A stretch of 64,000 nt of DNA from Mariprofundaceae bacterium (GTDB lineage Bacteria; Pseudomonadota; Zetaproteobacteria; Mariprofundales; Mariprofundaceae): NCBI GenBank assembly GCA_021772895.1, contig JAJFLC010000002.1, positions 1 to 64,000 of the forward strand, in the 5' to 3' direction. The translations under genes were made by a program, and so were the position numbers. Below are positions 28,048 to 46,549 of the stretch, piece after piece. How positions within the stretch are numbered: the stretch's first letter is position 1; the number at the start of each line of letters is the position of its first letter. The notes beneath the pieces were generated by a model. It made no database searches and was not told the DNA's origin. It worked only from the letters and a program-made list of their open reading frames with translations.

Positions 28048-30732
28048 TTAGGATGCGTCCAGGAGCAACCTTTTAATTTCTGGAACACACGATCCACAAC
28101 CCGTACCAGCCATGGTGCAGGCTTTGATGGCATCCACAGAATCATTGCCATCTTTTATAGCCGCTATCAACTCCAATTCACCCACATTCTGGCAAGCACA
28201 AATAATCTTGCCCTTGGTATCTTCCTTGGTGACAGGGCCACCCGGAGCCAACAGAAACGGACGCAGCTCATTCACATCGCGACCTTCCAGCATCAGTTTG
28301 CGCAGCCACTGCGCCTCGTGCATATCACCGCCCACCCAGCGCACAGCCACCAAATGCCCATCATCAAGCCATGCCTTACGATTGATACCAAACTTACGAT
28401 CAGAATAGGTAAGTGTTTCAAAGCTTTTACCCAGCTCCAACATCTGATCCAGACGTTTGTACTGCGCTTCTTTCAACGCTTTCGTACACGCCAAATCAAT
28501 GGATGTCACAGGATGATCACTGCCCGAGCAAGACACAACGCCGTAGGTATACCCTTCAATCATCTCCCGCCCAAGTGGGATATGTTGCCCTGCAATCAAC
28601 ATCATGCCCTGCCATGCAGGCTCAAAACGCCGCACTTCTACGGCGGAGTGTTTGAATTCAGGCTCTTTGGATACGGGATCAACCACAGATTGAATCAACG
28701 CATTGGCACGACCACTGCGGGCGGTCATGCTGCCCCAATGCATAGGCAGAAATACCAGACCAGCACGTACATCCTTGCTGATTTGTGCCGACACAATCAC
28801 TTCACCACGCCGAGAGCTCACCAACACCAGATCTTCATCATCAATCTCTCTGGCTCTGGCATCATCAGGATGCATTTGCAGCTGCGGAATCGGCGCATGT
28901 TGCATCAACTGCGGCACATTGCCGCTTTTGGTCATGGTATGCCATTGATCGCGAATGCGGCCCGTGGTCAAAGAGATAGGAAACGCTGCATCGGTGGGTT
29001 CGGCTACGGGTTTGTAGGGTGTATCCATGAAGTGCGCTTTTTTATCCGCTGTTTCAAAGATGTCATCGGTATACAGGCGTTTGATTTGATTGGGTTTTGA
29101 GCCTTTGGGGTATGGCCATTGTTGCGGCCCAAACTCATCCAGCACAGCATACGACAAACCTGTGATATCAATATCACGGCCTTGGGTGAGGCCACAATGT
29201 TCATCAAACACATCACCTGTTTTTTCATAGTTAAAAGCAGAAGACCAGTCTTTGCCCAGCTTCTGACCCAAACACAGACCAAAATCAGCCGCAATTTTCC
29301 AATCAGGGCGCGACAATCCCGCCGCAGGCAACGCTTGTTGCAAGTGGGTGATACATCTTTCCGAATTGGTGACAGAACCTTCCTTTTCTGCCCAGCCTGC
29401 CGCAGGAAACAAAACATGGGCAAACTTGGTGGTATCTGTGGGGTGATAGGCATCAGAAACCATCACCAATTCAGCTTTTTTCAAAGCCGCTTGCGCACGT
29501 TTGGCATCTGGCATGGATACAATCGGGTTGGTGCAGGCAATCCATACTGCTTTGACTGTGCCTGCTTCTAACGCATCAAAAAGCTCAGTGGCTGTTAGCC
29601 CTGGGGTTTGTGGCACATCATCCACACCCCAATACGCTGCCACTTCTTTACGATGTTCTGGATTGGTATAATCACGATGTGCCGCCAACATATTAGCCAG
29701 CCCGCCCACTTCACGGCCGCCCATGGCATTGGGTTGACCTGTTAAGGAAAATGGCCCGCAACCTTCTTTACCCACCTGCCCTGTTGCCAGATGCAAATTG
29801 ATCAGCGCATTGTTTTTATCCGTGCCTGAAGTGGATTGATTCAAACCCATGGTGTAAAAAGAGAGGGTTTTATTTTCAGCAAACCACAAGGCTGCTTTGA
29901 CAATATCTTCGGCATTCAAACCGCAGATTTCTGCGGCTTTTCGCGGGGTCATCAACTTCGCACGTTGGCTTACAGCTTCAAAACCTGTGGTATAACTGTC
30001 CACATAATCCTGATCAACAAAATCTTCCCACATCATCACATTCAACATTGCCTGAAACAGTGCCACATCGGTGCCGGGTTTGAGTGGCAGGTGCAGATCA
30101 GCAATCGAGCAGGTATCGGTGCGGCGAGGATCGGCAACAATCACCTTTAAATCAGGATTGGCCTCTTTGGCAGCCTCCAAACGTCGAAACACGATGGGAT
30201 GGGCAAAGGCAGGGTTGGCACCTGCAATAAAATAACAACTTGCCAGCTCAATATCATCATAACAGGTCGGCGGGCCATCGGCACCAAAGGCACGCTTATA
30301 ACCTGCAACCGCCGAAGACATGCAAAGCCGTGAATTGGTATCGATATTATTGCTGCCAATAAACCCTTTCATCAGTTTGTTGAAGACATAATAATCTTCG
30401 GTCAGCAATTGCCCCGACACATAAAATGCCACGGCATCCGAGCCATGTTTTTTAATAATATCAGCAAACTTTTGCGCTGAATAATCAAGGGCTGTATCCC
30501 AGTCCACAGGTGCAAGCGGTTGATTCAGGGATGTGCGCAATTGCGGACGCAGCAAGCGATCATGGGTGCGTACCGTATGGTGAAGTTCACGACCTTTGGA
30601 ACACAGTTTACCTTGATTGGTAGGGTGAGAAACATTGCCAGTCAGCGAGATGATACGTTCACCATCTGTTTCCAGGCGAATGCCGCAGCCCGTACCACAA
30701 TAGGAACAGGCACTGTTGACTGTTTTGGTCAT
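28048..30732 (-). CDS. nasA: assimilatory nitrate reductase catalytic subunit
   Basis: Cytoplasmic Mo-bis-MGD nitrate reductase. The [4Fe-4S] ligands are Cys9, Cys12, Cys16 and Cys44, and the Mo ligand is Cys137 in SRLCMSSAV. A C-terminal BFD-type [2Fe-2S] domain spans about 840-890 (ICACQNVG ... GTGCGSCVPE). No signal peptide. 894 residues, the long NasA type that takes electrons from NADH- or ferredoxin-linked partners. AGGAGAG precedes the ATG. Confidence 0.96.
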   Translation of the reverse strand: MTKTVNSACSYCGTGCGIRLETDGERIISLTGNVSHPTNQGKLCSKGRELHHTVRTHDRLLRPQLRTSLNQPLAPVDWDTALDYSAQKFADIIKKHGSDAVAFYVSGQLLTEDYYVFNKLMKGFIGSNNIDTNSRLCMSSAVAGYKRAFGADGPPTCYDDIELASCYFIAGANPAFAHPIVFRRLEAAKEANPDLKVIVADPRRTDTCSIADLHLPLKPGTDVALFQAMLNVMMWEDFVDQDYVDSYTTGFEAVSQRAKLMTPRKAAEICGLNAEDIVKAALWFAENKTLSFYTMGLNQSTSGTDKNNALINLHLATGQVGKEGCGPFSLTGQPNAMGGREVGGLANMLAAHRDYTNPEHRKEVAAYWGVDDVPQTPGLTATELFDALEAGTVKAVWIACTNPIVSMPDAKRAQAALKKAELVMVSDAYHPTDTTKFAHVLFPAAGWAEKEGSVTNSERCITHLQQALPAAGLSRPDWKIAADFGLCLGQKLGKDWSSAFNYEKTGDVFDEHCGLTQGRDIDITGLSYAVLDEFGPQQWPYPKGSKPNQIKRLYTDDIFETADKKAHFMDTPYKPVAEPTDAAFPISLTTGRIRDQWHTMTKSGNVPQLMQHAPIPQLQMHPDDARAREIDDEDLVLVSSRRGEVIVSAQISKDVRAGLVFLPMHWGSMTARSGRANALIQSVVDPVSKEPEFKHSAVEVRRFEPAWQGMMLIAGQHIPLGREMIEGYTYGVVSCSGSDHPVTSIDLACTKALKEAQYKRLDQMLELGKSFETLTYSDRKFGINRKAWLDDGHLVAVRWVGGDMHEAQWLRKLMLEGRDVNELRPFLLAPGGPVTKEDTKGKIICACQNVGELELIAAIKDGNDSVDAIKACTMAGTGCGSCVPEIKRLLLDAS

Positions 30733-30764
30733 TCTCTCTCCTATATCTCAAGCAAATTCAACGA

Positions 30765-30832
30765 ACCACAAAGGCACGAAGACACAAAGAAAAACTTATT
30801 ATAGTTACGTTGTGCCGATGTGCCTTTGTGGT
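30765..30832. repeat. long inverted repeat between nasA and nirD
   Basis: ACCACAAAGGCAC (30765-30777) is exactly complementary to GTGCCTTTGTGGT (30820-30832), with further partial pairing inward. Similar CCACAAAGGCAC repeats occur between genes in many environmental bacteria. It may end or stabilise the nirBD message. Confidence 0.65.
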
Positions 30833-30855
30833 AAAAGCTACAAATGACTCGACGC

Positions 30856-31176
30856 TTATAAACTCAAGAAAACCTGACCATCTTCAACTTTGACAGGATA
30901 CGTTTTAACGCAACCCTCATCGGGTGCCGCCACAACCCCATCATCCAAGTGAATGCGCCAATTGTGTAAAGGGCATAAAATATCATCACCGGAAATAATG
31001 CCTTCAGCCAGTGGCCCATGTTTATGTGGGCAACGGTTTTCTATGGCTTTCACTCTATCATCGGTGAGTCGGAATACGGCAATCACCGTATCACCAGCAT
31101 TCACCGTACGCGCTTGCGATGGTGGAATCTCATCAAGCTTACAAACTTCAATCCATGCTGCTGTTGCGTTACCCAT
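30856..31176 (-). CDS. nirD: nitrite reductase (NADH) small subunit
   Basis: Rieske-fold subunit of cytoplasmic NirBD. The Rieske ligands are all present (Cys49, His51 in CPHKHGP; Cys68, His71 in CPLHNW), so it probably binds [2Fe-2S], unlike some NirD proteins that lost them. 106 residues. It starts just after the nirB stop. Confidence 0.94.
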   Translation of the reverse strand: MGNATAAWIEVCKLDEIPPSQARTVNAGDTVIAVFRLTDDRVKAIENRCPHKHGPLAEGIISGDDILCPLHNWRIHLDDGVVAAPDEGCVKTYPVKVEDGQVFLSL

Positions 31177-31177
31177 C

Positions 31178-33634
31178 TTATGCTTCCACCCTTACTGGAA
31201 TATCAATGCGTTTGTATTCCGAAAATTTGTTTAATTGTTCTTTTTCAGCATCGGCAACACGTGCTGCCCATGGATCCTGATCCTGGGTTGCAATATATGC
31301 ATCCATACGCGCCACCAAGGCTTTGCGGCTTTCAAGATCATCCACCACCAAGGCTTTGATGCTGTCTAAACCCACACGTTTCTGCCATGGGGCAGTGCGC
31401 TCATTGTGGCGACCTGTTTCACGGTAGTGTTGTAAATAAGCTTTGCTCACTTCTTCGACTTCTTCGGCTGTTTCCACAATGCACAACAGCTCTGTGGCGA
31501 CAACATGCACACCGCCATTACCACCCGTGCTGATTTCCCAGCCGCCTTCAACGCCCACGATGCCAATATCTTTAATAGTTGCTTCAGCACAGTTGCGCGG
31601 GCAACCCGACACACCAAATTTCACTTTGGCCGGGAACCAAATCCTATCCAGGCGTTTTTCAAGATGGATACCCAATGAGGTTGAGTCCTGAGTACCAAAT
31701 CTACACCATTTTGAACCCACACACGTTTTCACGGTGCGCAATGCTTTGCCGTAAGCAAAACCACTTGGCATATCCAGATCTTTCCACATCGCTGTTAAAT
31801 CTTCTTTTTTCACACCCAGCAAATCAATACGCTGGCCGCCTGTGATTTTCACGGTGGGCACATCATATTTTTTCGCGACAGTCGCAATGCGAATCAAATC
31901 ATCCGGTGTCGTTTCGCCGCCATAAATACGTGGAATCACCGAGAATGTGCCATCTTTCTGGATGTTGGCATGCATCTTTTCATTGGCGATGCGTGAGCTG
32001 CGATCATCTTCAGAATCTTCAGGGAACAACATACCAATGTAATAGTTGATTGCCGGGCGACACACCTGACAGCCCTCACCTTTCCACTCCAAAACGTTCA
32101 TCACTTCACGAACCATGGTCAGTTTCTTGGTTTTGATTTGCTCTTTAACCTGCTCATGATTCAAATCGGTACAACCACAAATCGGCTCATGGTCGGATTC
32201 AACAAATGCCGTACCCAAGGTTGAAGCAAGCAATTGATCCACAAGGTCTGCACAGCCACCGCAAGAACCAGCTGCTTTAGTGCAGCTGGTCACTTCCTTG
32301 CGCGTGGTTAAACCCTTGGTCATGATGGCATCAACCACATCTTTTTTGCTGACGCCATTACAACCACAAACGATAGTGTCATCGGCCATCGCCGAGACCA
32401 AATCAATGCCCGAATGCCCGGAATCACCCAAGCCAGATGCCGAAAAGAGCAGGCTGGAGCGTTGCTCGGATACATCTTTGCCATCTTGCATCCATTGGAA
32501 AAATGTTGGCCCATCGGCGGTGTCGCCAAACATGACCACACCTTTGATTTTATCATCTTCAAGCACGAGTTTTTTGTAAACACCACCCACGCGATCCATC
32601 AGCTCAAGCACATCAGCACCTGGGCCTCCCATGAAATCGCCAGCTGAAAACACATCCACACCAGAAACTTTCAACTTGGTCGAAACCACCGAACCCTGAT
32701 ACGCCTTTAATCCTTGCCCTGTAATCTGATAGGCAAGCACTTTGGCCTGCTCAAACAGTGGTGCCACCAAACCATAAGCAATGCCGCGATGTTCTGCGCA
32801 TTCACCCACCGAATAAATCGCAGGATCCGTCACCGTTTGCATATAATCATTCACCACAATGCCACGGTTGCAATAAATGCCAGAATCCTTGGCCAAAGCC
32901 ATGTTCGGACGAATGCCCACGGCCATAATCAACAAATCACAATCAAGGCTTGAACCATCTTTAAATTTCAGCCCTGAAACACGCTTATCACCCATGACTT
33001 CAGTGGTTAGCGTGGAAACCTTGAAATGCATGCCTTGCTCTTCCAGATCAGCACGCAACATTTCACCTGCAACACTATCAAGCTGCATATTCATCAGTGT
33101 GGCCTGATCATGAATCACAGTGGCTTCCATACCTAAATTGAGCAGACCTTTGGCAGCTTCAAGACCAAGCAAACCACCACCAATCACAGCCGCTTTTTTG
33201 TATTTCTTGGCCGCTGCAAACATTTTATCGCAATCATCAATATCGCGGAAAGCCATTACGCCGTCTTTGTCGTGACCGGGCACAGGAATAATAAAAGGAT
33301 CAGACCCTGTAGCGATAATCAGGTTGTCGTATTCGGCTTCAGTGCCATCTTCTGCGATGACCTTCTTATAACCACGCTGAATCTCTTTGATGCGCTTACC
33401 CATATGCAAGGTAATGCCGTTATCGGCATACCATTGTTCATCGTTAAGGATAATATCTTCAACAGTGGTATCTCCCGCCAGAACCGGAGAAAGCATAATA
33501 CGGTTATAATTCGGATATTTCTCTGCGCCGAAGATTGTAATATCAAACATATCAGGATTAGCTTGCAGGATCTCTTCGATCGCACGAACCCCTGCCATAC
33601 CATTACCAATCATCACCAGTTTTTTCTTCAACAT
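31178..33634 (-). CDS. nirB: nitrite reductase (NADH) large subunit
   Basis: Reduces nitrite to ammonium with NADH in the cytoplasm. N-terminal FAD/NAD part (MIGNGMAGVRAIEE, then GGGLLGLEAAKGL near 152), two BFD-type iron-sulfur segments (CGCNGVSKKD; GSCGGCADL; ICGCTDLNHEQ), and the C-terminal sulfite/nitrite reductase domain with siroheme-cluster cysteines (TCVGSKWCRFGTQ and GVSGCPRNCAEA). 818 residues, full length. A sigma-54 promoter lies 37 bases upstream. Confidence 0.97.
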   Translation of the reverse strand: MLKKKLVMIGNGMAGVRAIEEILQANPDMFDITIFGAEKYPNYNRIMLSPVLAGDTTVEDIILNDEQWYADNGITLHMGKRIKEIQRGYKKVIAEDGTEAEYDNLIIATGSDPFIIPVPGHDKDGVMAFRDIDDCDKMFAAAKKYKKAAVIGGGLLGLEAAKGLLNLGMEATVIHDQATLMNMQLDSVAGEMLRADLEEQGMHFKVSTLTTEVMGDKRVSGLKFKDGSSLDCDLLIMAVGIRPNMALAKDSGIYCNRGIVVNDYMQTVTDPAIYSVGECAEHRGIAYGLVAPLFEQAKVLAYQITGQGLKAYQGSVVSTKLKVSGVDVFSAGDFMGGPGADVLELMDRVGGVYKKLVLEDDKIKGVVMFGDTADGPTFFQWMQDGKDVSEQRSSLLFSASGLGDSGHSGIDLVSAMADDTIVCGCNGVSKKDVVDAIMTKGLTTRKEVTSCTKAAGSCGGCADLVDQLLASTLGTAFVESDHEPICGCTDLNHEQVKEQIKTKKLTMVREVMNVLEWKGEGCQVCRPAINYYIGMLFPEDSEDDRSSRIANEKMHANIQKDGTFSVIPRIYGGETTPDDLIRIATVAKKYDVPTVKITGGQRIDLLGVKKEDLTAMWKDLDMPSGFAYGKALRTVKTCVGSKWCRFGTQDSTSLGIHLEKRLDRIWFPAKVKFGVSGCPRNCAEATIKDIGIVGVEGGWEISTGGNGGVHVVATELLCIVETAEEVEEVSKAYLQHYRETGRHNERTAPWQKRVGLDSIKALVVDDLESRKALVARMDAYIATQDQDPWAARVADAEKEQLNKFSEYKRIDIPVRVEA

Positions 33635-33883: not shown

Positions 33884-35164
33884 TCAGAATTTATAGCTCG
33901 CCAGCACATAACCAAAGCTGGCTGTATCAGACTTACCGCCATTGCGCTCTGCCACTGCTTTACCCGGATTAAAGATTGAATAATTCGCTACAAGTGCCAG
34001 GCCTTTTACCGCAGCCACTTTGTAAACGATTTTCAAATCAATCTCTGTCCCGGCATCTTTTGAAGTATAAGCAGGATTGCCTGCAAACAGGCTGCCTGCA
34101 CCCACAACATTCAACCAATCGCCTGTCGCCTTATCAAGTGAAAGAAAATGCACATTACCCTTAAATGTCAGCCCTTTTAACGGCGATGTTTTTAATGATA
34201 AACGAATATCTCTCATATTGGCCCAGGAAAAACGATCCATTTCACCGTAGTGAGCATGATTGGTGTGAAACGGAAATACAAAATCCTTGTGCTCACCAGC
34301 ACCTGGCGTTGCATCGCCAGGACTGTAGTCATATTCTATGCCTATACGGGTCTTCCACATATCAAAGGTATACCCTGCTTTCACTGCATAGGCCGAAGCA
34401 CTCTGAGTGACACCCTTTGCCCATTTTCCTGACTGAAAAGCAGCCTCTGCAGTGGCATCAATCCCACCCCATTTACCAAAGCCACGCGCACCATAGGTAT
34501 TGATGCTGCGACCTGCACCAACCGAAGCGCCATCACCGTGATACCAGTTGATAAAATAAGCATCCATGCCTGTTTTTGGTGCAACGGTGTAAGTACCATA
34601 AACACCCGTCAATCGACGATCTTCCCAGGTCACCAGAGATTGACCTTGGGGAGATGCAGCTGATGGTGTCATTGCACCAATATCCGATGGGTGTACTGCA
34701 AACGCATCAACCTTGAATGCATCATCTTTATAAAAAACTTTCATACCATCAAAGGTTCGAGCGACATCCTTCCAGCCCAGATGCCCCAGCAATCGTTGAT
34801 CGCCATAGACCAGCTGCTGCCTTCCCACTCTGACCCCAAACCCGCTCACATCATATTGCAGATAAGCCTGTAATAAATCCGCTTGTGTAAAGTTTTGAGT
34901 ATCCGTTGTTGTATGATTCAAAATATGAACTGCTTGAGGCTGTAAAAAAACGGATAGCCCGTTTCCAAAATCTGCCTTAGCCTTTATGTATAATCTGGAA
35001 TCGAATTCCCAACTGTTTTTGTCTACGGCTGAATTAAAATCCAGATTATTAAAAAACTGATACCGCTCACGCAAATCTGCCGACACATCCCATTCTGCCG
35101 CCATCGCCTGCGTGCAGCCAAAGATCATTGCCACTCCTAAAATACTACGTATTATTTTATGCAT
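33884..35164 (-). CDS. alginate-export-family outer-membrane porin (426 aa)
   Basis: Signal peptide (about 1-22, ending TQAMAA), then a beta-barrel of the alginate export family (EWDVSADLRERYQFFNNLD, FGVRVGRQQLVYGDQRLLG, TFDGMKVFYKDD), ending in an aromatic residue (ASYKF) as outer-membrane barrels do. Members form outer-membrane pores; few exported substrates are proven. ATG 35164 has GGAG upstream and replaces the longer frame. Its sigma-54 promoter nearly matches that of nrtA, which suggests passage of nitrate or nitrite, by inference. Confidence 0.85.
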   Translation of the reverse strand: MHKIIRSILGVAMIFGCTQAMAAEWDVSADLRERYQFFNNLDFNSAVDKNSWEFDSRLYIKAKADFGNGLSVFLQPQAVHILNHTTTDTQNFTQADLLQAYLQYDVSGFGVRVGRQQLVYGDQRLLGHLGWKDVARTFDGMKVFYKDDAFKVDAFAVHPSDIGAMTPSAASPQGQSLVTWEDRRLTGVYGTYTVAPKTGMDAYFINWYHGDGASVGAGRSINTYGARGFGKWGGIDATAEAAFQSGKWAKGVTQSASAYAVKAGYTFDMWKTRIGIEYDYSPGDATPGAGEHKDFVFPFHTNHAHYGEMDRFSWANMRDIRLSLKTSPLKGLTFKGNVHFLSLDKATGDWLNVVGAGSLFAGNPAYTSKDAGTEIDLKIVYKVAAVKGLALVANYSIFNPGKAVAERNGGKSDTASFGYVLASYKF

Positions 35165-35207
35165 TGTTGTATTCTCCATGTATTACAGTGTTGTATGAAC
35201 ATCCTAT

Positions 35208-35444: not shown

Positions 35445-36146
35445 ATGAAACAACCCATTCTTATCCTTCAGCAAGTGGAACAAGAGCCTCCGGCGATGAT
35501 CCAACAAGCGATTGCCGATGCTGGCTGGCACAGCCAAATCATCATGACACAAACAGAACCTGTTCCTCAGTCATTAAGCAGCTATGCAGGCTTGATTGTT
35601 ATGGGTGGCCATATGTCAGCAAACGATATTCACCTGGATTTTATCGATCGCCAGATAAAGCTTTTGAAATGGTGTATCCGCGATGCTTTTCCGGTCTTTG
35701 CTATTTGTCTGGGCTCCCAGCTATTGGCAAAAGCCGCTGGTGGTGAGGTGATCCCATCTCCTGTCAGAGAACTGGGCTGGTATCCGTTACATCCAACTTT
35801 TTTTGCGATTGATGATCCCTTATATGGCGAAATGCTGGATACTGGCCTACAGGTCTTTCAATGGCATGGAGAAACATTCACCCTGCCTGAAACGGCTACA
35901 CTTCTTGCCACCTCACCGGAAGTTCTTCATCAGGCATTTCGATTAAAAGCCAGGCAATACGGCATGCAATTTCATGCCGAAATGACCGAGCCTTTGATTC
36001 GTGAATGGATTCATCACGGCACCAGCGAAAGTGCATATCTGGGAGAGCCTAAAGTCACTGCACTGTTAGATGAAATTCCAAAATCTTTACCGGTTGCAAG
36101 AGAATATTGTCGCCGCATGGTCAATGCATGGCTCAAGCTTTTGTAA
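35445..36146 (+). CDS. class I glutamine amidotransferase-like protein (233 aa)
   Basis: Type 1 GATase fold with an intact triad: Cys88 in AICLGSQLL, His177 and Glu179 in MQFHAEM, plus VMGGHMSAND near 52-61. It is a stand-alone domain resembling GMP-synthase-like or gamma-glutamyl hydrolase proteins; the substrate is unknown. It is divergent from the porin and followed by a CNB protein 43 bp later. Its place beside ammonium-producing genes hints at glutamine metabolism or sensing. Confidence 0.82.
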   Translation: MKQPILILQQVEQEPPAMIQQAIADAGWHSQIIMTQTEPVPQSLSSYAGLIVMGGHMSANDIHLDFIDRQIKLLKWCIRDAFPVFAICLGSQLLAKAAGGEVIPSPVRELGWYPLHPTFFAIDDPLYGEMLDTGLQVFQWHGETFTLPETATLLATSPEVLHQAFRLKARQYGMQFHAEMTEPLIREWIHHGTSESAYLGEPKVTALLDEIPKSLPVAREYCRRMVNAWLKLL

Positions 36147-36189
36147 CATCCAATATTATATAACAAACAAATTAAAAAAGGAGCATGCA

Positions 36190-36711
36190 ATGAGCATCAG
36201 TAAATATGATTTAAGCAGTCAGGACATCGATCTTATTTCCACATTCCCAATATGCAGTGACATGACATTAGAAGAATCAACAATTTTTAGCAAACACCTG
36301 ACGGGCCTTGAATACACCGATGGAGAAGTATTGTTCACACAACAAAGCAGAATGGATGACCACTTATTCATCATACTTGAAGGTGAAATAAAAATAACCA
36401 TCAAACTCGAAGAAATTGGGCAAAACAGTGCAACCATTGTCAATCAGCAGCAGGGAAACATCGCAGGCATTTTATCTTTCATTGATGGCAGGCCCCATAT
36501 GGCATCAGCACAGGCAATCACGCCTGCACGCATCGCGATTATCACACGCAAAGATTATCAACACTTTAAAGAGCATCATCCCGATATCGCTGCAAACATG
36601 TTGCAATATTTAATTGTTGCCGCTGATGATCTGGCTTGTCAGTTGCTGAAAAAACTATCGGAGTCGCTGGCGTATATTCATGGAAGTACACGTCCAAGAA
36701 CCATGGCTTAA
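36190..36711 (+). CDS. stand-alone cyclic nucleotide-binding-fold protein (173 aa)
   Basis: A single Crp-type beta roll (about 20-130, with DGEVLFTQQSRMDDHLFIILEG and GNIAGILSFIDGRP) but no helix-turn-helix at the C-terminus. It may sense a ligand and act through a partner. ATG 36190 has GGAG seven bases upstream and is far better than the longer frame, which starts inside the amidotransferase gene. Confidence 0.8.
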   Translation: MSISKYDLSSQDIDLISTFPICSDMTLEESTIFSKHLTGLEYTDGEVLFTQQSRMDDHLFIILEGEIKITIKLEEIGQNSATIVNQQQGNIAGILSFIDGRPHMASAQAITPARIAIITRKDYQHFKEHHPDIAANMLQYLIVAADDLACQLLKKLSESLAYIHGSTRPRTMA

Positions 36712-36905: not shown

Positions 36906-38288
36906 ATGCGATCTGATCATCGTAAATGGAAAAATATGTTTATCGTTTTTGCTACAGCCGGAATCCTGCTGTTTAGCAATAGCACACTCGCTTCTGCTAC
37001 CGGAGAACCGGAAAAAGAAGATTTAAAGTTCGGCTTTATCAAGCTGACCGATATGGCGCCTTTGGCCATTGCTTATGAAAAAGGATATTTTGAAGACGAA
37101 GGGCTTTTTGTAACCCTTGAAGCCCAGGCCAACTGGAAAGTTCTGCTTGATGGTGTGATCGACGGAAAACTCGATGGCGCACATATGCTGGCTGGTCAGC
37201 CACTGGCTGCAACCATTGGTTACGGCACCAAACACACCATCATCACCCCTTTCAGCATGGATTTGAATGGTAATGCAATTACTGTGTCTAATTCAGTATG
37301 GAAAGAGATGAAAAAACACGTGCCTGTAAAAGATGGCAAACCCGTTCATCCCATTAAAGCTGATTATCTCAAACCCGTGGTTGAGAAATATCAAGATGCA
37401 GGCAAACCTTTTAAAATGGGTATGGTTTTCCCGGTTTCAACACATAACTATGAGCTACGCTACTGGCTTGCAGCCGGTGGTTTGAAACCAGGGTTTTACG
37501 CACCGCTTAAAGGTGATACTTCAGGCACGATTGATGCCGATGTACTTCTTTCTGTCACACCACCACCTCAAATGCCGAGCACCATGGAAGCGGGCACCAT
37601 TTATGGTTACTGTGTAGGTGAACCTTGGAATCAGCAGGCCGTTTTCAAGGGTATTGGTGCCCCTGTCATTACAGATTATGAAATCTGGAAAAACAACCCG
37701 GAAAAAGTTTTTGGTATCACTGAAGCATTTGCCAAAAAGTATCCAAATACCACAACCCGCCTTGTAAAAGCATTGATCCGTGCGGCCAAATGGCTGGATG
37801 AAAACAACAATGCGAATCGTATGGAAGCGGTAAAAATCCTTTCCAAGCCAAATTATGTGGGTGCTGATGCCAAAGTCATCGCGAACTCTATGACAGGCAC
37901 CTTTGAATATGAAAAAGGCGACAAACGCTCAGTACCGGATTTCAATGTGTTCTTCCGCTACAACGCGACCTACCCATACTATTCTGATGCCATCTGGTAT
38001 CTGACTCAGATGCGTCGCTGGGGACAGATTGGAACATACAAACCTGATTCATGGTATGTTGATATCGCAAAGAAAGTCTATCGCGCAGACCTTTATCAGA
38101 CAGCAGCCAAAGCACTGATTGCTGATGGTGGCTTTAGTGCGAATGAGTTTCCTGATTTCAAAACAGAAACGGGTTTCAAACCTGCTCAAACTGAATTCAT
38201 CGATAACATTACATTTGATGGGCACAAGCCTAATGCTTATATCGATAGCTTCCCTATTGGCCTGAAAGGTAAAAAAGAAATCAAATAA
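36906..38288 (+). CDS. nrtA: nitrate ABC transporter substrate-binding protein
   Basis: A signal peptide (about 1-30) precedes an NrtA/CmpA-type periplasmic protein: [39 protein letters not shown], and [17 protein letters not shown], all part of the nitrate/bicarbonate-binding fold. 460 residues, normal for NrtA. The nitrite-reductase neighbours favour nitrate over bicarbonate. GGAGG lies seven bases upstream, and a strong terminator follows, so more NrtA than NrtB is expected. Confidence 0.95.
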
Positions 38289-38301
38289 GTCTTTAAAATC
38301 T

Positions 38302-38337
38302 AAAGCTCTCCCTTATTCAGGGGGGGGAGCTTTTTTT
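38302..38337 (+). terminator. intrinsic terminator between nrtA and nrtB
   Basis: AAAGCTCTCCC (38302-38312) pairs with GGGGGAGCTTT (38323-38333) with one G-U pair, then a run of T. It probably reduces read-through from nrtA into nrtB, keeping the binding protein in excess. Confidence 0.85.
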
Positions 38338-38355
38338 CTTATGAATGGAGAGATA

Positions 38356-39378
38356 ATGAAGCAACAAACGTTTAAAACAATGGAATCAGTAGGTCTGACC
38401 TGGATGATTCCCCTGTTTAGGCTCATCACACTTGATGAACCGGGAAGGCAACTGAAAATAATTGCCAACGGCATCTTACTGCCTGCACTGGCAATAATTA
38501 TATTTTTAGGGTTTTGGTCGATTGTTTCAGCCAACATCCATACCAGTTTAGGACAACTTCCCGGACCTGTGCAAGTTTGGCAGCAAGGCAATACCCTGAT
38601 TGATGAACATTTTGAAGAGCAGACAAAAAAAGCCGCCTTTAACGAACGTCAGGAAAAACGTAATGCAAAAAAACTGGCCAGGAACCCTGATGCCAAGGTG
38701 AAAATCAGAGCATATACGGGCGCGCCAACATTTATTGATCAGATATTCACCAGTTTAATCACTGTGGTTACTGGCTTTTTGATAGCAAGTCTGGTTGCCA
38801 TCCCTTTGGGTGTTTTCTGTGGCTTAAGCACCAAACTCAACAATGCGCTCAACCCTATTTTTCAGGTATTCAAACCGATTTCCCCTTTAGCATGGTTACC
38901 CATCGTCACCATGGTGGTCAGTGCCGTGTATTCCACGGATGATCCCATGTTTGCCAAATCATTTGTAGTCTCGGCCATCACCGTTTCTGTCTGTTGCCTC
39001 TGGCCAACGTTGTTAAACACAACCGTGGGTGTGGCCTCGGTTGAACAGGATTTGATTAATGTCAGCCGGGTGCTGCGCCTGCACTGGTTTAAACATATCC
39101 AGAAAATCGTTGTACCTGCCTCCATTCCTATGATGTTCACCGGCTTGCGTCTCTCTATGGGCATTGGCTGGATGGTTTTGATTGCCACAGAGATGCTGGC
39201 GCAAAATCCGGGACTGGGAAAATTTGTATGGGATGAATTCCAGAATGGTAGTTCGAACTCTTTAGGCCGAATCATGTTTGCGGTCTTAACGATTGGCTTC
39301 ATTGGATTTCTGCTCGATCGTTTTTTAATGACCTGCCAGCGTTTTGTATCCTGGGATAAAAACGCAGAAATACGCTAA
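38356..39378 (+). CDS. nrtB: nitrate ABC transporter permease
   Basis: Inner-membrane permease of the NrtB/SsuC type. An N-terminal helix (about 33-55) is followed by a charged cytoplasmic or periplasmic stretch (about 70-120), then the core helices and the EAA loop (RVLRLHWFKHIQKIVVPAS). ATG 38356 has GGAG five bases before; an in-frame ATG at 38341 has none. 340 residues. Confidence 0.93.
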   Translation: MKQQTFKTMESVGLTWMIPLFRLITLDEPGRQLKIIANGILLPALAIIIFLGFWSIVSANIHTSLGQLPGPVQVWQQGNTLIDEHFEEQTKKAAFNERQEKRNAKKLARNPDAKVKIRAYTGAPTFIDQIFTSLITVVTGFLIASLVAIPLGVFCGLSTKLNNALNPIFQVFKPISPLAWLPIVTMVVSAVYSTDDPMFAKSFVVSAITVSVCCLWPTLLNTTVGVASVEQDLINVSRVLRLHWFKHIQKIVVPASIPMMFTGLRLSMGIGWMVLIATEMLAQNPGLGKFVWDEFQNGSSNSLGRIMFAVLTIGFIGFLLDRFLMTCQRFVSWDKNAEIR

Positions 39379-39393
39379 TCAGGAGATATAAGT

Positions 39394-40200
39394 ATGAAAG
39401 ACAGATATCTGGAACTCTCAAAAGTATCCATTGAATTTCCCACCGAACAAGGTCCTTTTAAAGCACTGGATGAAATCGACCTCATTATGTCTGAGGGTGA
39501 GTTTGTATCACTGATCGGACATTCCGGTTGCGGTAAATCCACAGTTTTGAACATCGTGGCAGGCCTGTATCAGGCAACCACAGGTGGCGTACTTCTTGAA
39601 AACAAAGAGGTCAATGAACCGGGGCCTGATCGTGCCGTTGTATTCCAGAATCACTCACTGTTACCGTGGCTGACAGCCTATGAAAATGTTGAATTGGCAG
39701 TAAAACAGGTCTTCAATAAAAGTAAAAGTCCTCAAGAGATAAAAGATTGGATCGAACACAATCTCACACTCGTGCATATGGATCATGCCATGCACAAACG
39801 TCCGGCAGAAATATCCGGCGGCATGAAACAACGTGTGGGCATCGCCAGAGCACTTGCCATGCAACCCAAGGTACTGCTGATGGATGAACCGTTTGGTGCA
39901 CTTGATGCACTCACCCGTGCTCACCTTCAGGACTCTCTGATGGAGATTCAGGCTGATTTAAACAGCACCGTCATCATGATCACCCATGATGTGGATGAAG
40001 CCGTTCTTCTGTCGGATCGTATTGTCATGATGACCAATGGACCTGCTGCAAAGGTGGGTGAAATTCTGGAGATTGATCTACCCCGTCCTCGAAACCGGGT
40101 CGAGATGTCAGACAATGCTGAATACAACCATTACAGGCACGAGGTGCTCGCATTTCTTTATGAGAAACAGCGCAACCCTTCAGATCAAAAAGCGGCGTAA
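39394..40200 (+). CDS. nrtC: nitrate ABC transporter ATPase
   Basis: ABC ATPase with Walker A GHSGCGKST (about 46-54), signature SGGMKQRVG and Walker B VLLMDEPFGALD. 268 residues, without the C-terminal NrtA-like regulatory domain found in cyanobacterial NrtC, so it is NrtD-like in build. It follows nrtB by 15 bases. Confidence 0.93.
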   Translation: MKDRYLELSKVSIEFPTEQGPFKALDEIDLIMSEGEFVSLIGHSGCGKSTVLNIVAGLYQATTGGVLLENKEVNEPGPDRAVVFQNHSLLPWLTAYENVELAVKQVFNKSKSPQEIKDWIEHNLTLVHMDHAMHKRPAEISGGMKQRVGIARALAMQPKVLLMDEPFGALDALTRAHLQDSLMEIQADLNSTVIMITHDVDEAVLLSDRIVMMTNGPAAKVGEILEIDLPRPRNRVEMSDNAEYNHYRHEVLAFLYEKQRNPSDQKAA

Positions 40201-40268
40201 ACCTGTGCATAAAATCGCCATGTGCTGCGCTTGCCAATCAGTCTGTACAACTTCAATGGAGGTTTCAC

Positions 40269-41111
40269 ATGCCTAAATACACACAACATGCACGACCCGC
40301 ACAGCGTGCACAATATTCACTCAAAACATTATGTCTCTTATTATGGCTGGTCACTGCATTGAATCTGTTTTGCCTGCCTGAACCGGCCAATGCCGAAGAA
40401 TCCATCGGCATCAGTGAAGCGATCAACATCGCTGGCCGTCAACGCATGTTAACACAGCGGATTGTTAAAACTTATTGTCTGGTCGGCATGCGCATTTCCC
40501 CTTCCATTCACCGGAAACAATTACAAGATGCCATGACACTGTTTGAAAAACAGCTCGATCAATTACAATCCTTTTCCGGAACAGAGCAATATACCCAAGC
40601 GGTGCAACAGGAACGTTACCTTTGGTCTCCAGTCAAAAAAATTGCAGAACAACCTGCATACAAAGATCAGGCAAAATTGCTGCGTGAAAAAGCTGAAGTT
40701 CTTTTGCGACAAGCCCATGCTGTGGTGCTTGTTTTAGAAGAGATGTCCGGCACAGCACAGGGTAAGCTGGTGAACATATCAGGGCGTCAACGCATGTTAT
40801 CTCAACGCATTGCCAACCTTTATATGTTACATGTCTGGGGTATTCGGGATGAAACATTTGTCCGTGATGCTCAGCAGGCAACCCATGACTTTGGAATCGC
40901 CATGAAAACGCTCGCTGATGCACCACAAAACACACTGGAAATAAAACAGGATTTGGAGGTTGTTGCTGCATTGTGGCGTGTTTACATTCTTGTCGGAAAA
41001 TTGGAGGATCAATTGGCTAAGGAACGTTTTGGCCCTCCATTGGTTGCCGAGTCATCTGATCTCATATTGAAACTTATGAATAAAGTCACAAATATGTATG
41101 CAGAGCTTTAA
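40269..41111 (+). CDS. periplasmic twin PilJ/NarX-type sensor-domain protein (280 aa)
   Basis: A signal peptide ends at ANA (residue 42). The mature protein has two repeats of the type IV pili methyl-accepting/PilJ N-terminal domain. Each opens with a P-box-like helix: EAINIAGRQRMLTQRI at 50-65 and VNISGRQRMLSQRI at 168-181. In NarX and NarQ the P-box helix binds nitrate at a dimer interface. Here there is no transmembrane or signalling output domain, so it looks like a soluble periplasmic sensor or carrier. GGAGG precedes the ATG. It lies between nrtC and narK. Confidence 0.78.
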   Translation: MPKYTQHARPAQRAQYSLKTLCLLLWLVTALNLFCLPEPANAEESIGISEAINIAGRQRMLTQRIVKTYCLVGMRISPSIHRKQLQDAMTLFEKQLDQLQSFSGTEQYTQAVQQERYLWSPVKKIAEQPAYKDQAKLLREKAEVLLRQAHAVVLVLEEMSGTAQGKLVNISGRQRMLSQRIANLYMLHVWGIRDETFVRDAQQATHDFGIAMKTLADAPQNTLEIKQDLEVVAALWRVYILVGKLEDQLAKERFGPPLVAESSDLILKLMNKVTNMYAEL

Positions 41112-41413: not shown

Positions 41414-42916
41414 ATGTCTACAGGCGTAGATCAAAGTAAAATAAATTTATTCTCATTCACAGGTAAGATGAAAATCTTACACATGTCATGGTTCGCATTT
41501 TTCATCAGTTTTGTGGTCTGGTTCAACTTTGCCCCTCTGATGGCATCCATACGCGAAACATTTGGTCTGTCCGATCAGGAAGTGAAGCTGTTATTAATTT
41601 TGAACGTGGCACTCACCATTCCGGCACGCATTATTATTGGCATGCTGGTTGATAAATATGGTCCAAAAATCACATTTTCGGTCTTACTCGCCGTTGCCAG
41701 TGTTGTCTGTTTTCTCTTTGCGTTTGCTGAAAGTTATGAAAAGCTGGCAACGTATCGTTTTCTTCTTGGTTTTGTGGGCGCTGGTTTTGTCATTGGCATT
41801 CGACTGGTATCTGAATGGTTTCCAGCCAAACAGGTTGGTACAGCGGAAGGTATTTATGGCGGCTGGGGCAACTTTGGTTCTGCCGGAGCTGCAATTGCAC
41901 TGCCTACGATTGCATTATGGGTTGGCGGCGATGATGGCTGGCGTTGGGCCGTCGCTTCTACCGGTGTACTTGCTCTGATATTCTCATTCATCTTCTATTT
42001 TTCGGTGAGCAACAACCCAAAAGGAACCACTTACTACCGACCTAAAAACCTTGGTGCCATGGAAGTTACCAGTCAAGGTGATTTCTTCTTATATGGTTTG
42101 ATGACTGCACCATTGTATTTAGCACTGGGTGTCCTGGCATGGAAAATTGGTCCTGCCAACCTGAACATATTTTCAGCGGTTGAAACGTATATCATATATG
42201 GCGCATTATTAACGCTTTATATCTATCAATTTTTACAGATTTATCGTGTAAACAAAGGTTTGTTTGCAGCCAATGCAAAACCCGTTGCAGAAATCCATCG
42301 TTATAAATTCAAACAGGTTGCAGCCTTGAATTTATCTTATATGATCACCTTCGGCTCTGAGCTGGCAGTGATTTCAATGTTGCCTCTGTTTTTCTTTGAT
42401 ACATTTAAAGAAACGGCTAATTTGTCGATTACACAAGCCGCACTGTTTGCTTCCATTTTTGCAGGTCTGAACTTAATTATGCGACCGGCAGGTGGCTATT
42501 TCAGCGATAAATTCGGGCGCAAAAAGACACTGTTGGTTACCCTTATTGGGTTATCTCTGGGGTATTTCCTGATGGGCCAAATTGATGCCACGTGGTCAAT
42601 CGCTGCCGCGGTTGGCGTCATGATCATTGCTTCACTGTTTGTGAACGCAGGCAATGGTGCTGTGTACGCAGTTGTACCATTGGTGAAACGTCGATTAACC
42701 GGACAGGTTGCAGGTACAACAGGTGCCTATGGTAATGTGGGCGGCGTAACGTTTCTGACAGTGTTATCATTTGTCTCTTCTCAAGTATTCTTTATCACCA
42801 TTGCCGTTGCTGCTGTTGCTGTGTTTCTGTTTGTCTTAGTTGCACTGGAAGAGCCAAAAGGCTTTATGTATGAAGAAAATGAAGATGGTACGGTTGAAAA
42901 GATCGAACTGCATTAA
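41414..42916 (+). CDS. narK: nitrate/nitrite MFS transporter
   Basis: NarK/NasA-type major facilitator with about 12 membrane helices in 500 residues. Nitrate signatures are visible: GGWGNFGSAGAA in helix 5 and TGAYGNVGGVTFL in helix 11, plus SIRETFGLSDQEV after helix 1. It would import nitrate or exchange it for nitrite. GGAGG lies ten bases upstream. It starts its own unit from a sigma-54 promoter. Confidence 0.94.
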   Translation: MSTGVDQSKINLFSFTGKMKILHMSWFAFFISFVVWFNFAPLMASIRETFGLSDQEVKLLLILNVALTIPARIIIGMLVDKYGPKITFSVLLAVASVVCFLFAFAESYEKLATYRFLLGFVGAGFVIGIRLVSEWFPAKQVGTAEGIYGGWGNFGSAGAAIALPTIALWVGGDDGWRWAVASTGVLALIFSFIFYFSVSNNPKGTTYYRPKNLGAMEVTSQGDFFLYGLMTAPLYLALGVLAWKIGPANLNIFSAVETYIIYGALLTLYIYQFLQIYRVNKGLFAANAKPVAEIHRYKFKQVAALNLSYMITFGSELAVISMLPLFFFDTFKETANLSITQAALFASIFAGLNLIMRPAGGYFSDKFGRKKTLLVTLIGLSLGYFLMGQIDATWSIAAAVGVMIIASLFVNAGNGAVYAVVPLVKRRLTGQVAGTTGAYGNVGGVTFLTVLSFVSSQVFFITIAVAAVAVFLFVLVALEEPKGFMYEENEDGTVEKIELH

Positions 42917-42998: not shown

Positions 42999-44711
42999 AT
43001 GACAAACCAGTTAATTGTAGAAGCGGGCCAATGCACACAGGCTGGCAGCAAAGAACAAAACGAAGACTGTTGCGGCATTCGTATTCCCGAAGGCGAAGCA
43101 CTCAAACATAAAGGCATTATCGCGGTCACTGCCGATGGTGTCGGAAGCTCTGAAGCAGGCCGGGAAGCAAGTGAATACTGTGTACAAGGTTTCATTGCCG
43201 ATTATTTAAGTACCCCGGATTCATGGTCCGTGCACAAATCGGGTGAACGGGTCATCAACGCACTCAATGCCTGGCTCTATAGTCAGGGCATGCGGCGTTA
43301 TGCATCTGAATTATCGCTGGCCTCAACGCTCGCCATACTGATTCTCAAATCAACAACCGCTCACATTTTTCACGTCGGTGATTCACGTATCTATCTTTTT
43401 CGCAATGGGACATTGCAACGCCTGACCAAAGATCATCGTTTGATGATCGATCGCAACAAATCCTATCTGGCCCGAGCGATGGGTGGCGAGCACAACGTTC
43501 GAGTCGATTATAAAAACATCGGCATTGAGCTCGGAGATATTTTTGTATTAACAACCGATGGCATCCACGAATTCCTCTCCGATGGAGAAATTCTTACTCA
43601 TATCATGTCTGGCAATGAAGAGCTGGAGGAGGCTGCCCAAACACTGGTCTCCAAAGCCATAAAAGCAGGCAGTGATGATAATCTTACCTGTCAGCTTATC
43701 CGTGTTCAAAAACTGCCGAATCAGGATGAAAACGAATTTTACCGTGAGTTAACCAAACTCCCCTTCCCTCCTCACCTGGAGGCAGGGCAGACTTTGGATG
43801 GGTATCGTATCATCAAAGAGTTGCACGCCAGTACAACTGTCCAGGTTTATCTGGCTGAAGATATTGAAACAGACGAGACTGTTGTCATCAAAACACCATC
43901 GATCAATTTCTCTGATGACCCAGCCTATATCGATCGATTTGTTCATGAAGAGTGGGTAGGACGACGCATTGATAACCAGCATGTTTTCAAAGTGCATGAA
44001 ACCAAACACAAAAGAAGTTATCTGTATTACGTCACCGAATTCCTTAAAGGCCAATCATTGACCCAATGGATTCTGGATCACCCCAAACCTGATCTTGGTG
44101 AGGTGCGCAATATCATATCCCAGATCATTAAAGGGCTGCGTGGCTTTCACCGCAAAGAGATGGTGCATCAGGATCTAAAACCTGAAAATATCATGATTGA
44201 TCAGCATGGCGATATCAAAATCATCGATTTTGGCTGCACGCTGGTTGCAGGTCTGAAAGAAATTTACACACCGGTTGAACATCAACATCTTCAGGGCACC
44301 GCAAATTATATCGCCCCAGAGCTGTTCAGCGGCGCTGAAGGCACACCCAGAAGTGATATGTTCTCCTTGGGTGTCACGATCTATGAAATGCTCTCTAACG
44401 GGAAATTTCCCTACACAGAACAGAGCAAAGCCGAGGCGCTTAGCTGCTATGATTATGTTTCAGTGCGCAAACATCATTCCGAGGTTCCATTATGGATGGA
44501 TGGCGCCATTCAGAAGGCCGTGCACCCAAACCCCGAACGCCGATATGATAGCTTTTCAGAATTCCTGCACGATCTATCCAATCCCAACCCGCTGTTCATG
44601 AAAACATCAGCCCCACTGATTGAACGCAACCCAATTGGCTTCTGGCGAGGCTTGGCTATTGCCCTGCTTATCATCAACGTGGCTTTGATCGCATTGCTTT
44701 CACAACAATAA
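42999..44711 (+). CDS. bifunctional PP2C phosphatase / Ser-Thr protein kinase (570 aa)
   Basis: The N-terminal PP2C domain (about 5-237) shows TADGVGS (44-50), VGDSRIYLF (126-134), TTDGIHEFL and GSDDNLTC. The C-terminal kinase (about 268-530) has Lys298 in VVIKTP, HQD at 390-392 with Asn397, and DFG at 410-412. A single transmembrane helix ends the chain (about 548-567), so both domains face the cytoplasm. The pair of opposite activities in one chain beside narK and nirBD is also known near nirBD in Pseudomonas aeruginosa, from memory. Its target is unknown. Confidence 0.9.
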   Translation: MTNQLIVEAGQCTQAGSKEQNEDCCGIRIPEGEALKHKGIIAVTADGVGSSEAGREASEYCVQGFIADYLSTPDSWSVHKSGERVINALNAWLYSQGMRRYASELSLASTLAILILKSTTAHIFHVGDSRIYLFRNGTLQRLTKDHRLMIDRNKSYLARAMGGEHNVRVDYKNIGIELGDIFVLTTDGIHEFLSDGEILTHIMSGNEELEEAAQTLVSKAIKAGSDDNLTCQLIRVQKLPNQDENEFYRELTKLPFPPHLEAGQTLDGYRIIKELHASTTVQVYLAEDIETDETVVIKTPSINFSDDPAYIDRFVHEEWVGRRIDNQHVFKVHETKHKRSYLYYVTEFLKGQSLTQWILDHPKPDLGEVRNIISQIIKGLRGFHRKEMVHQDLKPENIMIDQHGDIKIIDFGCTLVAGLKEIYTPVEHQHLQGTANYIAPELFSGAEGTPRSDMFSLGVTIYEMLSNGKFPYTEQSKAEALSCYDYVSVRKHHSEVPLWMDGAIQKAVHPNPERRYDSFSEFLHDLSNPNPLFMKTSAPLIERNPIGFWRGLAIALLIINVALIALLSQQ

Positions 44712-44957: not shown

Positions 44958-46241
44958 TTACTCCAGCAGCCGGGTTCTGTGATTGTTGCCAATTTCTCTA
45001 ACGACATCCTCATTCAGACCAGCCAAGTGAGCATATTCTGGCCAATTATTGACAGCCGCTTCGACCTTTTCAATCACGCTATGCCTGATGTGAAACTCAT
45101 CACCAACCACCTGTAGATCCTTCCTGGTAAAACCACTCGACTTTCCATTAACCAGCATCTGATGTTCATTCGTCCACTGACCTGCCGGGTTATGCGCATA
45201 GGTCAAATCATATGCTGGCGAAAGCACCCATGCTCCGGTTTGATCCATCAGGTAGGAAATGTTCTTGGTATGGTCATCCTGGTTTCTAGCCAACACATTA
45301 AACACCATGCGGCGATAGAGCTCTTCTACATCTTTTTGCAATTTGGTTATGCGCATCGTAGCCAGTAGTGCTTGCGAATAGCTGTATGCGCGTGCTCTAT
45401 TGAAATCATAGTGAGCGAGTGCGCACAAGGATTGCATGTGGATTTTACCGCCGTTTACACGATCAAATCGACGGGTCATAAAATGGGCTCTTCCGCTCTC
45501 TTCCCACAAGTCGCATTCGATCATGTCGATGCCAGATGCCTTGGCCATCAAATAGTATGCAAATTCAATGCGTCCGAATTGTTTGGGTTCGCCTAATTCC
45601 ATATCCGTTATACCATCGAATTTGATGATCCAGTGATCGAAACCGGTTGGTACCGCCGCCTGTCCTGATATGATCTCCTTCGTCTTACTGTTAATAGCAA
45701 CAATACCCTTGGGTCGAGCACCACCGGCAGATGTGCCAATCTGTAGAATTGCGCTCAAGGCATCGTTATCGTTGCTGCTTACCTGTAGCTCTCCCTTAGC
45801 TTGCATGACCTGATTGGCCAACTCGATAATTCCGGGCATATCGACCGGCACAGCCTGACTTATAGCTGACTTAATGGCCGGTCGAAATTCAAGAGCTCCC
45901 ATTCCCCGGCTCCCCATGTACAAAAGCTTTTCGACAGGGTTTATGTTGGTGCGGCCTTCTTTGGCAAGCCACACATCAATCATGGCATTACCAAACTTGT
46001 CAGGCAGTGAATCTGCCAACATGCCCGGTAAACCCGCGAACGTATCTCGATTGAGATTGGTGAAGGTGAAGCGTTTTTTTCGGCCGCCATCAGTCGGCAT
46101 AAGCAGCTGTGACGGCTGAAGTCCGGTTCTGGCAAATTTGTCCGTATAAGCAAAGGTTCCGTACTGACGATTGCCATCCCATGCGACTGCGCCGATCTGC
46201 TCCCCCCACAGATAAACCTCTGCAACCGAGTGTTCGGCCAT
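44958..46241 (-). CDS. hipA: HipA-type serine/threonine kinase toxin
   Basis: HipA family: N-terminal domain (about 1-115, AEVYLWGEQIGAVAWD), a loop GTSAGGARPK (169-178) resembling the autophosphorylation region, catalytic NQDDHTKN (320-327) and SPAYDLT (341-347). In E. coli HipA phosphorylates glutamyl-tRNA synthetase and causes persistence. All kinase motifs are intact, so it may be active. It overlaps hipB by one base (TAATG). Confidence 0.92.
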   Translation of the reverse strand: MAEHSVAEVYLWGEQIGAVAWDGNRQYGTFAYTDKFARTGLQPSQLLMPTDGGRKKRFTFTNLNRDTFAGLPGMLADSLPDKFGNAMIDVWLAKEGRTNINPVEKLLYMGSRGMGALEFRPAIKSAISQAVPVDMPGIIELANQVMQAKGELQVSSNDNDALSAILQIGTSAGGARPKGIVAINSKTKEIISGQAAVPTGFDHWIIKFDGITDMELGEPKQFGRIEFAYYLMAKASGIDMIECDLWEESGRAHFMTRRFDRVNGGKIHMQSLCALAHYDFNRARAYSYSQALLATMRITKLQKDVEELYRRMVFNVLARNQDDHTKNISYLMDQTGAWVLSPAYDLTYAHNPAGQWTNEHQMLVNGKSSGFTRKDLQVVGDEFHIRHSVIEKVEAAVNNWPEYAHLAGLNEDVVREIGNNHRTRLLE

Positions 46242-46549
46242 TACTTGCCTCCTCTCGCACGCTGACGAGTTTTCCCTTGCATTTCAGCTAGGGCAATCGG
46301 GTCAATAGTGTCTTCAGGTAACATTAACTCCAACTGATCCAGCGCTTGCAACTCGCGCAATATGGCAACCAGCGTCGAAACTTTACCGCTCCCGTTCTTT
46401 TCCATGCGGCGGATAGTTTCGACTGATACACCCGTTCGCTCGGCCATGCTCTCTTGCGTAATGTTCTGGTTCAGCCTCGCAGTGGCAATCCTGCTCCCGA
46501 TTTCGACAAGGATTGCTTTGTCTGCCATAGAAAATGGATCAACACTCAT
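46241..46549 (-). CDS. hipB: HipB-type XRE antitoxin
   Basis: Helix-turn-helix of the XRE class (about 28-60, NITQESMAERTGVSVETIRRME), then a short C-terminal tail with basic residues (GKTRQRARGG). It would neutralise HipA and repress the operon. Stop and hipA start share one base. Three AAGAAGTCA boxes lie at its start and upstream. Confidence 0.88.
   Translation of the reverse strand: MSVDPFSMADKAILVEIGSRIATARLNQNITQESMAERTGVSVETIRRMEKNGSGKVSTLVAILRELQALDQLELMLPEDTIDPIALAEMQGKTRQRARGGK

Follow-up and report, generated by a model that had tools for sequence, protein, structure and literature searches.

In the window, i.e., the whole stretch of 64,000 nucleotides of DNA that was analysed, an intact open reading frame at 40269-41111 on the forward strand encodes an exported protein of 280 amino acids with two PilJ domains, with a GGAGG Shine-Dalgarno sequence at 40258-40262, 6 nt ahead of the ATG. 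The gene lies between nrtABC and narK, as the first-pass annotation had placed it and as the Pfam and NCBIfam assignments of the neighbours agree, with a spacing of 69 bp to the end of nrtC and of 303 bp to narK. The features of the gene and of its neighbourhood are as follows.

28048-33634, reverse strand: nasA-type nitrate reductase and nirB nitrite reductase (NirB by TIGR02374; nasA assigned from the sequence and from relatives)
33884-35179, reverse strand: Alginate_exp-type outer-membrane porin (Pfam), relatives of which adjoin double-PilJ genes in other genomes
36906-40200, forward strand: nrtA (NMT1_2), nrtB and nrtC (ntrCD), nitrate ABC transporter (Pfam/NCBIfam)
40269-41111, forward strand: gene of the exported double-PilJ (N-box) protein, 280 aa (open reading frame, ribosome-binding site, Pfam PilJ twice)
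40269-40394, forward strand: predicted signal peptide, residues 1-42, Sec-like, cleavage at ANA-EE (hydropathy; −3/−1 Ala rule by reading the sequence)
40410-40748, forward strand: PilJ domain 1, predicted four-helix bundle, residues 48-160 (Pfam; AlphaFold2 helices 6-31, 36-59, 64-84 and 90-118 in mature numbering)
40416-40463, forward strand: P-box/N-box 1, EAINIAGRQRMLTQRI, residues 50-65, with G56xxR59 (exact match to the McpN N-box)
40755-41105, forward strand: PilJ domain 2, predicted four-helix bundle, residues 163-279 (Pfam at 40758-40982; AlphaFold2 helices 121-147, 153-174, 181-201 and 206-237 in mature numbering)
40770-40811, forward strand: P-box/N-box 2, VNISGRQRMLSQRI, residues 168-181, with G172xxR175 (one mismatch, A to S, to the N-box)
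41414-42916, forward strand: narK nitrate/nitrite transporter (TIGR00886 over cut-off)
42999-44711, forward strand: PP2C phosphatase-Ser/Thr kinase fusion (Pfam)

Some further elements of the region are also noted. A strong terminator-like hairpin with 13 pairs and a T-rich tail is present between nrtA and nrtB (38302-38333, forward strand), which is probably an attenuator that keeps the output of NrtA above that of NrtBC. Directly upstream of nrtA, a protein with a cyclic-nucleotide-binding domain and with no DNA-binding domain by Pfam is encoded (36070-36711, forward strand), and it is present too in G092, a genome of the same bacterial family. Adjoining the nitrate cluster are the genes of a HipA-like protein and a small helix-turn-helix partner (44958-46549, reverse strand), which by look would be a HipBA-type toxin-antitoxin pair. 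The window also encodes a NapA-like periplasmic nitrate reductase, assigned from the sequence (24614-27127, reverse strand), implying that the organism has periplasmic nitrate use as well. The Rfam search over the window gave tRNAs only.

Domain composition and N-boxes

The only Pfam family found in the 280-residue protein is PilJ (PF13675), matched in two stretches (E 1.7e-20, 73.6 bits versus the cut-off of 26.6), and the two halves of the protein, when scored singly, give 44.7 and 35.6 bits, each above the cut-off. Thus two PilJ domains are present, each with a P-box-like helix, just as the first-pass annotation had described them. The Kyte-Doolittle hydropathy has its maximum of 2.02 at residues 18-36, after which comes the c-region EPANA-EE, and downstream of the signal peptide it peaks at 1.02, so that a second membrane segment is absent. 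By Pfam and hydropathy the protein lacks the HAMP and kinase domains and the membrane anchors of the NarX and NarQ histidine kinases, and by Pfam it lacks the McpN-type C-terminal methyl-accepting signalling domain; the earlier description of a signal peptide with neither anchor nor output domain is thus borne out. The search against PHROGs gave no match.

The N-box of the nitrate-binding PilJ domains, as defined from McpN, reads [IVL]-[ND]-x-A-G-x-Q-R-M-L-[ST]-Q (PMC6381276). All of its positions are satisfied by box 1 (INIAGRQRMLTQ), while box 2 (VNISGRQRMLSQ) has a single departure, A to S, which is also found in 43 of the 73 family members. The G-x-x-R motif is kept in both boxes in all 73 relatives, a conservation that is partly selected because the scan patterns demanded one N-box-like box. 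In NarQ and McpN nitrate is bound through this motif, and the mutation R61A in McpN abolishes the binding (PMC8199190, PMC6381276). The first-pass annotation had taken the two helices for the nitrate-binding element of NarX and NarQ. The G-x-x-R is indeed present, and the basic residue of the P-box is retained in both copies as R59 and R175, but the type is that of the generic PilJ N-box (McpN-like GRQRMLSQ) and not that of NarX/NarQ (GSLRMQSYR).

Predicted fold and comparison with known nitrate sensors

The structure was predicted with AlphaFold2 for the mature window protein, using an alignment of 73 sequences, and in a second run for a betaproteobacterial homologue. In the model of the window protein (pLDDT 96.5, pTM 0.93) the eight helices make up two bundles with a two-residue turn between them, R59 and R175 sit on helices 1 and 5, respectively, and the same fold is predicted for the homologue (pLDDT 96.7, pTM 0.93). 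In the structure search with both models, one bundle fits McpN with TMt of 0.76-0.77, and the best fit of the whole chain is to NasR (4akk), where the window protein reaches a TMq of 0.55-0.59 and the homologue one of 0.63. One bundle makes up half of the chain and could by itself hardly bring the TM beyond 0.5, so that the match to NasR involves both bundles. The prediction is thus in agreement with a nitrate-sensor fold, and the nearest whole-chain architecture in the models is that of the NasR NIT domain rather than that of NarX and NarQ, with which a comparison had been proposed before.

Based on these models, we infer that the double-PilJ protein may be a pseudo-dimer within a single chain, with one site for the anion. 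An alternative is that it forms a homodimer, or a tandem stack like that of the PilJ receptor, which would accord with the facts that the sensor domains of NarX, NarQ and McpN hold nitrate between two chains (PMC6381276) and that the PilJ receptor, with two PilJ domains per chain, is the top Foldseek match by E-value. By contrast, the whole-chain TM is 0.27-0.30 to PilJ versus 0.55-0.63 to NasR, and between helices 4 and 5 there is a turn of just two residues, making this alternative very unlikely. The PilJ-receptor-like tandem arrangement was rejected because the whole-chain TMq to 7zjr/8wdf is 0.27-0.30 and the rmsd about 22.

The comparison by sequence with the solved structures gives nitrate-bound McpN (6gcv) as the best match (E 7.9e-12), PilJ as the next and NarQ as a weak one (E 0.087), while the PDB search with the single sequence gave chance matches only. 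With McpN (PA2788 of Pseudomonas aeruginosa) the window protein shares the PilJ four-helix bundle, the N-box and the nitrate-binding arginine, the last as a conserved residue in the sequence, but McpN is a membrane chemoreceptor that has one bundle per chain and dimerises, whereas the window protein is soluble and exported, combines two bundles in a single chain and has no output domain. With the NarX and NarQ sensor domains it shares the four-helix bundle and the G-x-x-R P-box, while these are membrane kinases whose P-box is of another type (GSLRMQSYR versus GRQRMLSQR here) and whose sequence match is weak. Soluble nitrate-binding proteins of nitrate assimilation clusters are known in the NasS/NrtA type, which the window protein would resemble in these respects, although the NasS/NrtA-type proteins have the NMT1_2 fold, unrelated to PilJ. 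The periplasmic region of the PilJ chemoreceptor (7zjr, 8wdf) also has two PilJ domains per chain, but its domains are arranged otherwise, its N-boxes are not conserved and it does not bind nitrate, so that nitrate binding is not universal among PilJ domains (PMC6381276).

In NasR the NIT domain is built of a pair of four-helix bundles and has two arginines at the interface (PMC7400543), with helices 1 and 5 taking part in the pocket (PMC7496416). The predicted fold of the window protein is similar to this, with paired four-helix bundles in one chain and arginines on helices 1 and 5, while NasR, unlike the window protein, is a cytoplasmic protein with a fused ANTAR domain. By sequence, no relation of the window protein to NIT (PF08376) was found, with Pfam giving PilJ and not NIT and with an hhalign probability of 0.3%. 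The predicted fold suggests that the double-PilJ protein would nevertheless work like a NIT domain.

Distribution and gene contexts of the family

Scanning of genome contigs with a profile gave 364 confirmed relatives, of which 80 were kept as loci for study; scanning with the single protein as the query gave none. The family members are mostly about 260-290 amino acids long, and those read closely bear an export signal. The 80 loci range over Beta- and Gammaproteobacteria, Campylobacterota, Desulfocapsa and Bacteroidota, and the window genome has one copy.

Genes nasA, nirB or nrtA occur within 10 kb in 11 of the 80 loci compared with none of 40 random windows, and with the markers widened by narK, narG, narX and ANTAR the comparison becomes 11/80 versus 1/40 (p 0.045), a modest enrichment, with the control windows drawn from another genome set and the loci not phylogenetically independent. 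About 70% of the 80 loci have no nitrate marker nearby. Mapped on the tree of the family, location in a nitrate cluster takes 7 label changes and a neighbouring porin takes 5, from which it follows that the nitrate association is unlikely to be of single origin. Within the bacterial family of the window, six nitrate clusters (in G108, G021, G005, G160, G201 and G052) have no double-PilJ gene, and G160 and G201 carry the gene away from the nitrate cluster. The gene is therefore dispensable, an accessory rather than a core part of nrtABC. The idea that it belongs specifically to nrtABC systems, whose loci it had been proposed to survey, is thus not supported, most members of the family also lying away from nitrate genes.

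The gene contexts with nitrate genes are of several kinds. The betaproteobacterial loci usually have narK, nirB, the double-PilJ gene and nasA in this order on one strand, with signals of the twin-arginine type. In Microbulbifer marinus the order is nrtA-nrtB-nrtC-porin-double-PilJ, in G023 it is narX-narL-porin-double-PilJ beside narK and narG, and in G092 it is porin-double-PilJ-nirB. Compared with the window, nirB of G092 is 96% and the porin 73% identical, whereas the double-PilJ protein (L053:1697-2554, forward strand) is only 41% identical and its gene occupies a different position in the cluster; this suggests separate recruitment or very fast change. An Alginate_exp-type porin is the immediate neighbour of the double-PilJ gene in G092, G023, Microbulbifer, a Pseudomonas and Flavilitoribacter; a Saprospiraceae MAG has the porin two genes off. 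The loci with porin and double-PilJ gene (L053, L060, L129, L137, L140 and L145) belong to Proteobacteria and Bacteroidota.

These contexts bear on the reading that the protein is an uptake accessory, which would capture in the periplasm the nitrate admitted by the porin and hold it for, or channel it to, NrtABC or NarK with no signalling. The neighbours in the window, i.e., nrtABC, narK and the porin, would fit this, as would the recurrence of the adjacency to Alginate_exp-type porins with its 5 label changes on the tree. However, the role of the binding protein is already filled by NrtA, the nrtABC clusters of G108 and G021 have no double-PilJ gene, the betaproteobacterial members occur with MFS transporters and reductases and no porin, the Campylobacterota members occur with a kinase and no transporter, and PilJ folds are known for sensing, not for transport binding. 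We therefore consider this reading rather unlikely. For the role of a chaperone for uptake, which had been among the roles suggested at first, the support is indirect, coming from the porin and transporter neighbours.

The Campylobacterota have an operon in which one to five genes of exported double-PilJ proteins stand together with the gene of an exported related protein (no Pfam match, without G-x-x-R) and that of a membrane NIT kinase (L085, L090, L093-L096, L104, L107, L112-L114, L116 and L142), the NIT marker occurring in 13 of the 80 loci. The kinase, with the composition NIT-HisKA-HATPase-receiver, is about 1,000-1,060 amino acids long when full-length, and the exported genes lie just upstream of it. 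By its look, this operon would be a periplasmic system of several components for the sensing of nitrate. The response-regulator and kinase genes near 27 loci were judged to occur at about the base rate, the Campylobacterota NIT-kinase operons excepted. In addition, two cytoplasmic proteins with the composition pseudo-receiver-ANTAR-PilJ-PilJ are found.

L064:8572-9921, forward strand: between nirB and the PP2C-kinase gene, with nrtABC
L146:2603-4240, reverse strand: divergent from narK-nirB-exported double-PilJ-nasA

By analogy, both fusions are candidate NasR-like antiterminators in which a double PilJ would replace NIT.

Another alternative is that the ligand of the family is a different small anion or signal and that the location in nitrate clusters is incidental or a local specialisation. 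It would be in accord with this that most loci have no nitrate gene inside 10 kb, that close relatives within the bacterial family of the window adjoin housekeeping genes, and that the PilJ receptor itself, as noted above, does not bind nitrate. By contrast, the retention of both N-boxes, the association with ANTAR and with NIT kinases and the location in nitrate clusters, reached about seven separate times, argue against it, and we regard it as quite unlikely.

Proposed role

The best explanation of the data, to which we give a probability of roughly 0.45, is that the protein is a soluble one-chain receptor of periplasmic nitrate, perhaps of nitrite too, that touches a membrane partner. In this mechanism the two PilJ four-helix bundles would pack side by side, and helices 1 and 5, each with a G-x-x-R, would share a single pocket for the anion on the pseudo-two-fold axis, analogous to the site of the homodimer in NarX, NarQ and McpN and to that of the two-bundle NIT domain in NasR. 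The nitrate-loaded protein would then most likely touch a membrane partner, acting as a periplasmic co-sensor or nitrate presenter for the induction of the nitrate cluster. Action through a membrane partner is the most likely because the protein has no anchor or output domain, and contact with a membrane sensor is favoured by the operons with NIT kinases, by the ANTAR fusions and by the neighbouring narXL. The binding of periplasmic nitrate is probable, while the contact with the partner and the effect on induction are further steps that we infer. Of the roles offered at first, that of a putative soluble nitrate sensor is partly supported, by the export, the two nitrate-type boxes with R59 and R175, the predicted sensor-like fold and the repeated association with nitrate genes.

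The role of a partner of a membrane receptor, suggested at the same time, finds partial support in the Campylobacterota relatives directly upstream of the membrane NIT-domain hybrid kinase, while in the window genome no PilJ, NIT or ANTAR partner over the cut-off was found. Specifically, no PilJ protein was found elsewhere in that genome; the search for NIT gave nothing above the cut-off and one sub-threshold match in a PAS-type chemoreceptor; and that for ANTAR, a weak search that gave no match in the control genomes either, also gave nothing above it. The genome has 26 HisKA kinases over the cut-off, none of which was singled out as the partner. The neighbouring PP2C-kinase was rejected as a partner, having no visible periplasmic domain and just a short C-terminal hydrophobic tail.

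It is noted that the PilJ domain and its binding of nitrate are already known, and that the N-box PilJ proteins listed so far are regulators, kinases, chemoreceptors and cyclases (PMC6381276). What is new here, and apparently undescribed, is the free exported double domain and its operons: in the open-access literature searched, no description was found of exported double-PilJ proteins, of their operons or of the ANTAR-PilJ fusions, in agreement with the first-pass annotation, to whose knowledge such a role had not been described.

In the known PilJ, NarX and NIT nitrate sensors the output is in the same chain. That the exported sensing part occurs widely by itself, and repeatedly in nitrate operons, by porins and upstream of membrane NIT kinases, implies one more step in nitrate perception or acquisition. 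The proposed role would assign a function to many genes known only by a domain named for the type IV pili chemotaxis transducer. Moreover, the soluble single-chain protein with its predicted pocket could become a scaffold for nitrate biosensors, the protein being easy to express. Finally, we note a more tentative and somewhat doubtful generalisation, in which the exported proteins with two PilJ domains would form a general class of nitrate receptors, each soluble and of one chain, with the homodimeric site turned into a free periplasmic pseudo-dimer that signals by docking on separate membrane partners; these would be the NIT kinases of Campylobacterota, possibly NarX of pseudomonads and some kinase in the present organism. 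If this is true, such a class would constitute a co-receptor layer of bacterial nitrate sensing that has not been described so far.
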